A DNA stretch of 64,000 nt, taken from Oricola indica. Lineage in GTDB: Bacteria; Pseudomonadota; Alphaproteobacteria; Rhizobiales; Rhizobiaceae. Under the pieces are notes generated by a model. The model did no database searches. It was not told the origin of the DNA and saw nothing but the letters and a program-made list of their open reading frames with translations. The position numbers and the translations under genes are program-made. The DNA is taken from NCBI RefSeq assembly GCF_019966595.1, contig NZ_JAINFJ010000007.1, forward strand, positions 124,001-188,000, given 5' to 3'. Shown here in pieces: positions 29,685-31,022 of this stretch; positions within the stretch are counted from its first letter, which is position 1; the number at the start of each line of letters is the position of its first letter.

Positions 29685-30497
29685 TCACGACGTGTTCCAG
29701 GCCTCGAGCCCGAGATAGTTGCATTCCTTCAGCACCTCCTCGATCTCGGTCTTGGGCCGTTTCCTCCAGCCGGGCGGGAAGCCGGGGCGGAAGGGGCTGA
29801 AACGGATTGGCCGGCCGGAACCGGCGGCGCGGCGTGCGCGCCAGCGGGCCAGCCGCAGCGCCTGGCCGTCCAGATCGTCCAGCGCATTGGCGAGCGCGCG
29901 GATGCGCCGGCCGAGCGCCCTTGCATCGACCGGTTCGTTCGGCCGCGAGGCCGGGACGAACACTCCGTCGGAAGGATTGTCGAGCGCGGCGATTTCCGCC
30001 TCTGTCAGCCACGGCTCGGCGAAGGGCTTGAACGGGTCGAAAAGGACGAAGGCGGGTTGCGGGGTGTCGGCGGCTTTTCGCGGCGTCTTATTGCGGACGC
30101 CATCCTCGTGATTGACCCGAGGATTCACTCCGCCGAGCCGGAGAACGCCGGCGATGACCGAAGATGGCTCCTCGTTCTCGGTCTTCGAAGCGGTGGCAGC
30201 GTCTCCGGAATGGGTCCTCGGCTCAAGGCCGAGGATGACGGAGTTTCGTGGCGGCCTCCGGCGCTCTGTAACGGGCCGAACGGTGATCATCACCAGCTTG
30301 CAGGCGGCCATGGCGATGAGGCGACGCGCGGCGAATTCTGCGGGGCGGAGAAGCGCGAGGATGCGCAGATAGAGAAAGCGCGGCAGGGTATCGGCAGTGC
30401 GTCCTGCCTGAATCCCGGCCATGACGATCAGCCGCCCGGCGATGGTGCAGAGTATCTCGCAATTGCGATCGACCGCCCCGCGCCAGTTGAACTCCAT
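29685..30497 (-). CDS. Hypothetical protein of a Rhizobiales-type family, with a repeat inserted
   Basis: A 270-residue protein I cannot assign a function. The N-terminus (about 1-75) has hydrophobic stretches with Arg (AGRLIVMAGIQAG, LYLRILALLRPAEFAARRLIAMAACKLV). The C-terminal half is soluble and Pro/Arg-rich: QPAFVLFDPFKPFAEPWLTEAEIAALD, PVDARALGRRIRALANALDDL and RPIRFSPFRPGFPPGWRKRPKTEIEEVLKEC. These blocks resemble a conserved hypothetical family of rhizobia. Residues about 85-135 (NSVILGLEPRTHSGD and after) are the in-frame translation of two REP-like palindromes, so the linker is repeat-derived. Whether it is still translated is unknown. Confidence 0.6.
   Translation of the reverse strand: MEFNWRGAVDRNCEILCTIAGRLIVMAGIQAGRTADTLPRFLYLRILALLRPAEFAARRLIAMAACKLVMITVRPVTERRRPPRNSVILGLEPRTHSGDAATASKTENEEPSSVIAGVLRLGGVNPRVNHEDGVRNKTPRKAADTPQPAFVLFDPFKPFAEPWLTEAEIAALDNPSDGVFVPASRPNEPVDARALGRRIRALANALDDLDGQALRLARWRARRAAGSGRPIRFSPFRPGFPPGWRKRPKTEIEEVLKECNYLGLEAWNTS
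30101..30132. repeat. REP-like palindrome, diverged copy
   Basis: It matches the 32-base core of the copy at 30618-30649 at 27 of 32 positions, in the same orientation. Its stem CCTCG...CGAGG survives. With the opposite copy at 30207-30240 it forms an inverted doublet of about 140 bases inside the hypothetical gene. Confidence 0.6.
30207..30240. repeat. REP-like palindrome with compensatory stem change
   Basis: The 34-base unit (GGAATGGGTCCTCGG... to ...GAGGATGACG) is identical to the copy at 30989-31022 except for two positions. These two bases pair with each other in the stem (CCTCGGC-TCAAG-GCCGAGG against CCTCGGG-TCAAG-CCCGAGG), so the hairpin is kept. Confidence 0.75.
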
Positions 30498-30614
30498 GCC
30501 TCATGCGCCTCCGTTTGGTGCGGGGACAGTGTCGGGGAGGTTTGGGGGTGGTGGACGAGATTGTAGCGAATCGCCAGAAATCCGGCGTTTTGCCGCGACG
30601 GCCATCCTACGCGC

Positions 30615-30648
30615 CGTCATCCTCGGGCTTGACCCGAGGACCCATTCC
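30615..30648. repeat. REP-like palindrome left of the GIY-YIG gene
   Basis: A 34-base unit that is the exact reverse complement of 30989-31022. It carries a 7-bp stem (CCTCGGG and CCCGAGG) with a 5-base loop and ends 14 bases before the GIY-YIG start codon. Confidence 0.85.
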
Positions 30649-30662
30649 GTGAAGCTCGAGCG

Positions 30663-30953
30663 ATGGGCGGCTATGTCTACATGCTGGCGAGCAGGAAGGG
30701 CGGCACGATCTATATCGGCGTCACCGCCGACCTGTCGCAGCGCGTCTACGACCACAAGCAGCGCATCAACGCGAAGGCCTTCACCTCGCAATACGGGGCA
30801 GTCCGGCTCGTCTGGTACGAGGAATATGATGACATCACCGACGCGATCCAGCGCGAGAAGTCGCTCAAGCGCTGGCGGCGACAGTGGAAGATCGAACTGA
30901 TCGAATCCATGAATCCGGATTGGTCTGAACTATACGGGGGAATGGGGTGGTGA
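30663..30953 (+). CDS. GIY-YIG nuclease family protein
   Basis: A 96-residue stand-alone GIY-YIG domain, of the UPF0213/YhbQ-like class common in alphaproteobacteria. The two signature strands are GYVYMLASRKGGTIYIGVTADL (3-24), then the catalytic Arg in LSQRVYDHKQ, and YGAVRLVWYEEYDDITDAIQRE with a conserved Glu. It ends in ESMNPDWSELY, the usual family end. No DNA-binding domain is joined to it. The gene is framed by two exact inverted REP-like palindromes, 14 bases before its start and 36 bases after its stop. Its physiological role is unknown. Confidence 0.9.
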   Translation: MGGYVYMLASRKGGTIYIGVTADLSQRVYDHKQRINAKAFTSQYGAVRLVWYEEYDDITDAIQREKSLKRWRRQWKIELIESMNPDWSELYGGMGW

Positions 30954-30988
30954 GTGTTCTGCATCATCGGGTCCGGCGCGAGCGCTAC

Positions 30989-31022
30989 GGAATGGGTCCT
31001 CGGGTCAAGCCCGAGGATGACG
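30989..31022. repeat. REP-like palindrome right of the GIY-YIG gene
   Basis: The exact reverse complement of the unit at 30615-30648. The 304-base gap to the next gene (30954-31257) otherwise holds unremarkable G+C-rich sequence in which I see no gene. Confidence 0.85.

Follow-up and report, generated by a model that had tools for sequence, protein, structure and literature searches.

Among the described systems, the closest in layout are the REP/RAYT elements (REPtron, TnpAREP) together with the REPINs, in which, in part according to PMC3733652, a gene is framed by inverted tagged palindromes, inverted dimers of these palindromes are dispersed, a single genome can have several families with a separate gene for each, and remnants and a patchy distribution are seen; the GTAG-class REPs are tied to RAYTs (PMC3733652). 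Closest in the repeats themselves are the CGTC-tagged REPs, which Di Nocera et al. (2013, PMC3733652) described from every alphaproteobacterial order, with a CGTC tag, a stem of 8-9 bp starting with A/T, a loop of 4-5 nt and a CCA tail, and a tendency to form head-to-head dimers. According to that paper these repeats apparently have no dedicated transposase and are not associated with transposase genes, no tyrosine transposase gene checked being flanked by them, and what moves them is left open (PMC3733652). The term GIY-YIG has no occurrence in the text of that paper, and a link between GIY-YIG genes and REP or CGTC palindromes was found in none of the titles or abstract openings among the matches listed (open-licence PMC papers, preprints excluded), which does not prove novelty.

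The window analyzed here is a stretch of 64,000 nucleotides from Oricola indica, positions 124001-188000 of contig C40 in a genome of 5.09 Mb and 42 contigs. It contains a 408-bp unit at 30615-31022, in which a hairpin is followed by the gene for a 96-aa GIY-YIG nuclease and then by the inverted hairpin. We propose that this unit is probably a small composite mobile element comparable to REP/RAYT, with a GIY-YIG nuclease as its enzyme. That such a nuclease stands where the Y1 transposase would be expected, in a layout otherwise resembling REP/RAYT, was the central idea of a sequence-only reading of this DNA, and the comparisons presented here strongly support it. The unit shares with REP/RAYT the framing of a gene by inverted tagged palindromes, the dispersed inverted dimers, the multiple families with their own genes, the remnants and the patchy distribution, the RAYT features in this comparison being in part general background to the field. 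Unlike in REP/RAYT, where the framed gene codes for a Y1 (HUH) transposase, the framed gene of the window codes for an enzyme of an unrelated superfamily and the tag is CGTC rather than GTAG. With the CGTC-tagged REPs, the likeness extends to the tag, stem, loop, tail, dimers and a mostly alphaproteobacterial distribution, whereas the repeats here frame GIY-YIG genes and those of the paper apparently have no dedicated transposase (PMC3733652). We regard the enzyme as a strong candidate for the spreader of hairpin repeats that have no known mover. With a candidate enzyme whose repeat can be assigned to it at the level of individual stems, the question of the mover of CGTC-tagged REPs becomes testable on a single 96-aa protein and a 34-nt oligonucleotide. 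If the proposal is true, populations of REP-like repeats have originated two or more times on the basis of unrelated chemistries, and a function as the enzyme of a selfish or domesticated hairpin element would fall to many genes whose sole annotation at present is "GIY-YIG nuclease family protein".

The unit and the palindrome dimer beside it

The left (5') hairpin (30615-30649, forward strand) has its CGTC tag outward, the stem TCCTCGGG/CCCGAGGA, the loop CTTGA and the tail CCCATTCCG, and the right (3') hairpin (30988-31022, reverse strand) is its exact inverted copy, likewise with the tag outward; the earlier claim of 34-base palindromes at 30615-30648 (forward) and 30989-31022 (reverse) that are exact reverse complements was borne out. 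The gene for the 96-aa protein, a match to PF01541, lies between them on the forward strand at 30663-30953 including the stop codon, and while the gap of 14 bp previously given on its upstream side is correct, that of 36 bp on the downstream side measures 35 bp. Upon DNA folding the 34-mer forms an 8-bp stem with a 5-nt loop at -9.6 kcal/mol, with 0 of 200 shuffled sequences being as good, and its 24-base core, allowing up to three mismatches, has four matches in the window, where 100 dinucleotide-shuffled versions gave 0.00 on average. The hairpins of the window fit the CGTC-tagged REPs in having an unpaired CGTC tag, a stem of 8-9 bp, a loop of 4-5 nt and a CCA-like tail.

Beside the unit is an inverted dimer of the palindrome, the right arm of which (30207-30240, reverse strand) had been recognized as a third copy with two paired changes in the stem; it indeed has a compensated G/C swap and, like the 34-mer of the unit, folds into an 8-bp stem with a loop of 5 nt. 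The left arm (30098-30131, forward strand), which the sequence-only reading lacked, is a degenerate palindrome that folds more weakly, 5 of 200 shuffled sequences being as good. The cores of the two arms are 115 bp apart, a spacing shared with dimers in related genomes. A 270-aa open reading frame without a Pfam match (E<=0.001) occupies the reverse strand at 29685-30497, and its open frame passes through the dimer. Sequence resembling this frame is present in many places in the genus, where it is found with both palindromes (L145), with only the right one (L154) or with no complete one (L150, L151).

Framing of homologous genes by hairpins

The core 24-mer (up to three mismatches) has 13 copies in the Oricola genome as against 0 for the reversed control, and PF01541 is matched at five places, namely four small genes and a 675-aa frame that we take to be UvrC. 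All four small genes adjoin hairpins of this kind and three of them lie between clean inverted pairs, two with the stem of the window and one (C11:708371) with another stem (CCCTGTG). The fourth (C11:17377) has one clean hairpin, the other being interrupted by an inserted palindrome; this insert sits in the loop region of the framing hairpin (L016 ~1745-1823, at C11:17.7k). A further hairpin pair, on C37, frames a truncated GIY-YIG gene (residues 1-56). The strictly defined generic palindromes of this genome (10/10) all have a GIY-YIG gene or remnant no more than ~450 bp away. For the more loosely defined ones this is true of 10/13 at a distance of up to 600 bp, the expectation being 0.14% per site and the pairs being non-independent.

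Beyond this genome, homologues were detected at E<=1e-8 in 43 of 81 genomes (the own genome and 80 relatives) and at E<=1e-5 in 126 of 398 genomes drawn from the phylum, with up to 8 per genome. The loci surveyed are a part of the listed matches, including 100 stretches picked by hand, with homologues chosen by protein similarity and not by hairpins. Removal of duplicates and of alignments of 60 residues or fewer left 187 homologues, 185 of which are flanked on each side by 150 bp or more. In 179 of these 185 the alignment covers 80 residues or more, and 9 contain a stop. Framing was scored as an inverted repeat shared by the two 250-bp stretches upstream and downstream of the gene, deduplicated other ORFs of at least 100 aa from the same loci serving as controls.

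An inverted repeat with a score of at least 32 was obtained for 122/185 homologues versus 5/313 control ORFs (p ~2e-61, with relatives treated as independent), and one of at least 50 for 94/185 versus 0/313; prior to deduplication of the controls, when a few ORFs were counted twice, the control values were 6/321 and 1/321, respectively. The equal framing of other genes, which had been named as an observation that would count against the idea, is hence absent from these loci. With one protein per cluster the framing persists in 77/119 at 70% identity and in 34/52 at 60%, and 63/185 homologues have no inverted repeat at the score of 32 or more. Outward-tagged hairpins are found upstream of 122/185 homologues, downstream of 100/185 and on both sides of 80; the corresponding figures for inward-tagged hairpins are 74, 72 and 38, and 129/1410 control pieces of 250 bp have a hairpin on a given strand. 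Among the 106 units with a score of at least 40, the upstream arm contains a hairpin in 79 as against 5/106 after shuffling. In 60 of these 79 arms a [GC]TC[AG] tag adjoins the stem (15% by chance), facing outward in 48 and inward in 12; the loop measures 4-5 nt in 67 and the stem 8-9 bp in 56, and there are 53 distinct stems. This diversity of stems, along with the compensated variants, supports the earlier suggestion that the hairpin is maintained as a structure.

The stems and the enzymes appear to belong together. When paralogues of the same genome that are less than 80% identical are compared, the unit's own arms match each other better than they match the arms of the paralogue in 66/71 informative comparisons and lose in 5; when close paralogues are included, the own arms are better in 75, worse in 14 and tied in 2 of 91 comparisons. 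Counted by gene, 44/48 beat their best diverged paralogue. Across the 106 units, stem similarity correlates with protein identity (Mantel r=0.46, reached by 0/1000 permutations), a correlation that may in part be plain co-inheritance.

These data bear on a different account, in which another recombinase or a RAYT moves the hairpins and the GIY-YIG gene is cargo or a fortuitous neighbor. It draws on the tie between GTAG-class REPs and RAYTs (PMC3733652), on eight palindrome-bearing genomes with no small GIY-YIG match (see below) and on one sub-threshold match to Y1_Tnp (G054, E=4.7e-4). Over the cut-off, Y1_Tnp is matched in 0/15 palindrome-bearing genomes as opposed to 5/14 control genomes, which include E. 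coli and Caulobacter, and on this result a RAYT was rejected as the mover. Given also the contrast in framing between homologues and control ORFs, and the lack of association between CGTC repeats and transposase genes reported by Di Nocera et al. (PMC3733652), we consider this account highly unlikely.

In the plasmid collection an inverted repeat spans the gene in 9/10 loci examined: those framed are from Rhizobium, Shinella, Sphingobium (two), Novosphingobium, Neorhizobium and a Neisseria gonorrhoeae record, with one cyanobacterial and one Bacteroidota plasmid being framed more weakly, and the homologue on an R. tumorigenes plasmid (L320) has no framing hairpin. The Neisseria record (L323), although filed as a plasmid, resembles a chromosome in being 2.17 Mb long, and its GIY-YIG homologue has GTCATTCCCGC..GCGGGAATC hairpins on both sides, which resemble the neisserial repeat known as dRS3. 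A distant GIY-YIG subfamily (L129-L132, L134 and L135 tested) had been considered as a negative control; it was dropped because L129, L130, L131 and L134 are themselves framed by other long palindromes, of the CCTCATCCTGAGGTGCGAGC... or CCTTCGACAGGCTCAGGATGAGG types.

The GIY-YIG protein and its proposed action on hairpins

PF01541 (E=1.6e-17) is the sole Pfam domain matched by the 96-aa protein, and the named records closest to it are from Oricola and Ahrensia. In an alignment of 28 sequences, 16 columns are invariant in all, among them Y6, Y17, G19, R27, H31, E65 and N84. The domain match and the invariant Y6, Y17, R27 and E65 (28/28), which we take to be the catalytic residues, place the protein in the GIY-YIG superfamily. 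A search with its AlphaFold2 model (mean pLDDT 94.1) recovered the UPF0213 protein 1zg2 first (E=6.8e-5), followed by 1ywl (2.3e-2) and Slx1 entries (4.4e-2 and weaker), with I-TevI at rank 27; the predicted fold thus appears nearest to the Slx1/UPF0213 branch, in which the best PDB neighbors by sequence are also found. As with the members of that branch (1zg2, 1ywl, Slx1-Slx4), the protein consists of a single minimal domain. It differs from the Slx1 family, which PMC1564403 describes as lacking the C-terminal Asn, in its invariant N84, the correspondence of which to the Asn of UvrC and I-TevI is only putative. With GIY-YIG homing endonucleases of the I-TevI type it shares the catalytic fold and, as a possible mechanism, a selfish spread by cut-and-repair; unlike these, it has 96 residues with no extra domain seen and is framed by hairpins, I-TevI ranks structurally below UPF0213 and Slx1, and profile matches to intron or homing endonucleases are weak.

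Slx1 has a structure-specific nuclease activity and introduces nicks into DNA junctions (PMC1564403), and in light of this activity and the Slx1-like fold it is plausible that the enzyme acts on its own extruded hairpins. We posit that the two inverted, outward-tagged hairpins of the CGTC type would constitute the ends of the element and the 96-aa nuclease its sole protein, which may recognize the hairpin or cruciform of its own palindromes, for instance on the lagging-strand template, and nick near the conserved CGTC tag. GIY-YIG enzymes hydrolyze DNA and are not known to form a covalent intermediate; hence joining would fall to host repair and not to strand transfer of the Y1 kind. Host replication and repair might accordingly copy or move the unit by cut-and-repair, in either a homing-like or a replication-coupled manner. 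Cleavage, the cut site, mobilization and the descent of the dimers from such units are all points that we infer. More broadly, a super-family of hairpins with a (C/T)GTCA tag could extend across the bacteria and have Slx1-like GIY-YIG nucleases as its own enzymes, forming a system of REP mobilization with an origin independent of RAYTs, hairpin nicking coupled to host repair and co-diversification of stem and enzyme, which would include repeats known under other names (presumably the neisserial ATTCCC..GGGAAT repeat and the Hyphomicrobiales CCTCATCCTGAGG..-type repeat, labels that we assume to apply); we give this generalization an even chance of being correct.

The structural neighborhood of Slx1 could also be read to mean that the protein is a domesticated host nuclease that trims hairpins or cruciforms at replication forks, with the palindromes autoregulating the gene as a terminator or attenuator and nothing being moved. 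Purifying selection between copies (eight close homologues, compared in 28 pairs, have dN/dS values of 0.05-0.28), which also speaks for our own reading, and the position of a hairpin just 14 bp upstream of the start codon are compatible with such a housekeeping role. Nevertheless, some genomes have several divergent paralogues, the distribution is patchy (the 43/81 genomes given above), copies occur at unrelated loci, truncated remnants are framed, and tags point outward more often than inward; moreover, an autoregulatory hairpin leaves the close tag-outward dimers unexplained. We therefore give this reading very little credence.

Mobility, derivatives and genomes without the small gene

The unit of the window (C40) and one on contig C22, each 408 bp long, are near-identical in the left hairpin and the gene and are situated in unrelated loci. 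Their flanks are unrelated as well, bar the 28 bases outside the left tag (30587-30614 in the window, forward strand), of which 21 agree by a by-eye count on the alignment. With terminal inverted repeats and copies at unrelated sites, the units match insertion sequences and MITEs in this respect. They resemble IS/MITE pairs further in that a gene-bearing unit coexists with shorter elements having the same ends, some with gene fragments; they differ from these in that the ends are self-palindromic hairpins, in that no target-site duplication was established at the unit-less sites aligned in Oricola and Sphingobium, none of which is base-clean, and in that we know of no strand-transfer chemistry for a GIY-YIG protein. 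For the C40 and C22 units, five genomes of the same genus yielded no base-clean empty site; unit-less sites were aligned in G003 and G005, but they are decayed. At the locus of the Shinella HZN7 unit (L321), the unit and its hairpins are absent from the plasmids of H4-D48 and S. sumterensis.

At the fnrL-response regulator locus of Sphingobium plasmids, eleven records reach a coverage of at least 80% (eight aligned); the unit is present in 7 of them and absent from 4. Of the four unit-less records, TomTYG64 and TomTYG74 (L329, L330) show a single hairpin with a tag at either end, and the other two have no hairpin of this stem. Sphingobium TomTYG73 (L334) contains an unannotated GIY-YIG copy with a one-base deletion. 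The own genome also has a single hairpin tagged at both ends near a unit, at C11:17160. A double-tagged hairpin where seven relatives have the unit has the look of an uninterrupted target, as expected if the hairpins spread by other means and a GIY-YIG parasite homes into them, splitting one double-tagged hairpin into two; the similar hairpin at C11:17160 and the palindromes, sometimes abundant, of genomes that have no small GIY-YIG gene point the same way, and insertion at the cut site would suit a homing endonuclease. However, since the stems are direct repeats, a deletion between them is expected to give the same double-tagged hairpin, and the Sphingobium cases could equally be deletion products or uninterrupted targets. 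Homing of this kind also accords poorly with stems that match within units and track the protein, with hairpin-framed fragments that keep gene sequence, and with the proximity of 10/13 palindromes of the own genome to a GIY-YIG gene or remnant; we deem it unlikely.

Several observations given above weigh against our preferred reading, of a composite element with its own nuclease: the third of the homologues in which no inverted repeat was detected, the 38 with inward-tagged hairpins on both sides, the 14 comparisons lost by the own arms once close paralogues are included, and the Oricola sites that are not base-clean. It is also confronted by palindromes in genomes that have no small gene. Stem-A palindromes (up to two mismatches) are found in 32/81 genomes, and the expectation that they would follow the gene across relatives holds only as a modest association, with a homologue in 22 of the 32 positive genomes as against 21 of the 49 others (p=0.025). 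The ten positive genomes without a homologue hit include two (G044, G053) with a diverged small PF01541 match besides the UvrC-size one; the other eight, with only the UvrC-size match, have 78, 34, 21, 7, 3, 2, 1 and 1 copies. Abundant palindromes in relatives lacking the gene had been named in advance as evidence against the nuclease as spreader, and these eight genomes, above all G009 with its 78 copies, go part of the way towards it. Decay of the palindromes after loss of the gene was considered as a way of retaining gene dependence in G009 and was rejected: the variant stems there stay paired, so the palindromes are not simply decaying. No GIY-YIG remnant or hidden copy was seen at five contig ends or in six other stretches read in this genome, where the gene could have been lost after the spread or another mover could be at work. 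In G004, of the same genus as the window, there is only the UvrC-size match and no stem-A palindrome.

Probable shortened forms of the unit are also in evidence. Six contigs of the gammaproteobacterial MAG JAJDYQ (L050-L055) contain eleven partial GIY-YIG genes, all of which start at residue 61-71 and end at residue 86-94 of the query, with no full-length gene seen in this MAG. Seven of the eleven fragments lie between two perfect GTCATTCCTGCGAAAGCAGGAATCCA hairpins at a distance of 117-186 bp, whereas a contig end marks the start of the remaining four; in appearance the fragments are MITE-like derivatives of a unit with a GIY-YIG gene. Palindromes less than 200 bp apart, too close for a whole gene to fit between them, form 49 neighboring pairs in the partly hand-chosen loci, with 39 in the order '+-', 9 in '-+' and 1 in '--'. 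The preponderance of tag-outward pairs (39/49) agrees with the mainly head-to-head dimers of CGTC-tagged REPs, and we suggest that these dimers without a gene, of which the own genome has one at C11:838k, may be non-autonomous, MITE- or REPIN-like derivatives of the unit. Their spacing is fairly constant within a genome, while the spacers diverge in sequence: most dimers of the Oricola group, G002 excepted, have 115-117 bp, those of G009 mostly 53-70 bp and most of those in G035 73-84 bp. In the dimers of G009 and G035 that were read individually (L374-L380, L385-L387), the spacing is 53-70 and 76-84 bp, respectively, and the spacers are unrelated between copies.
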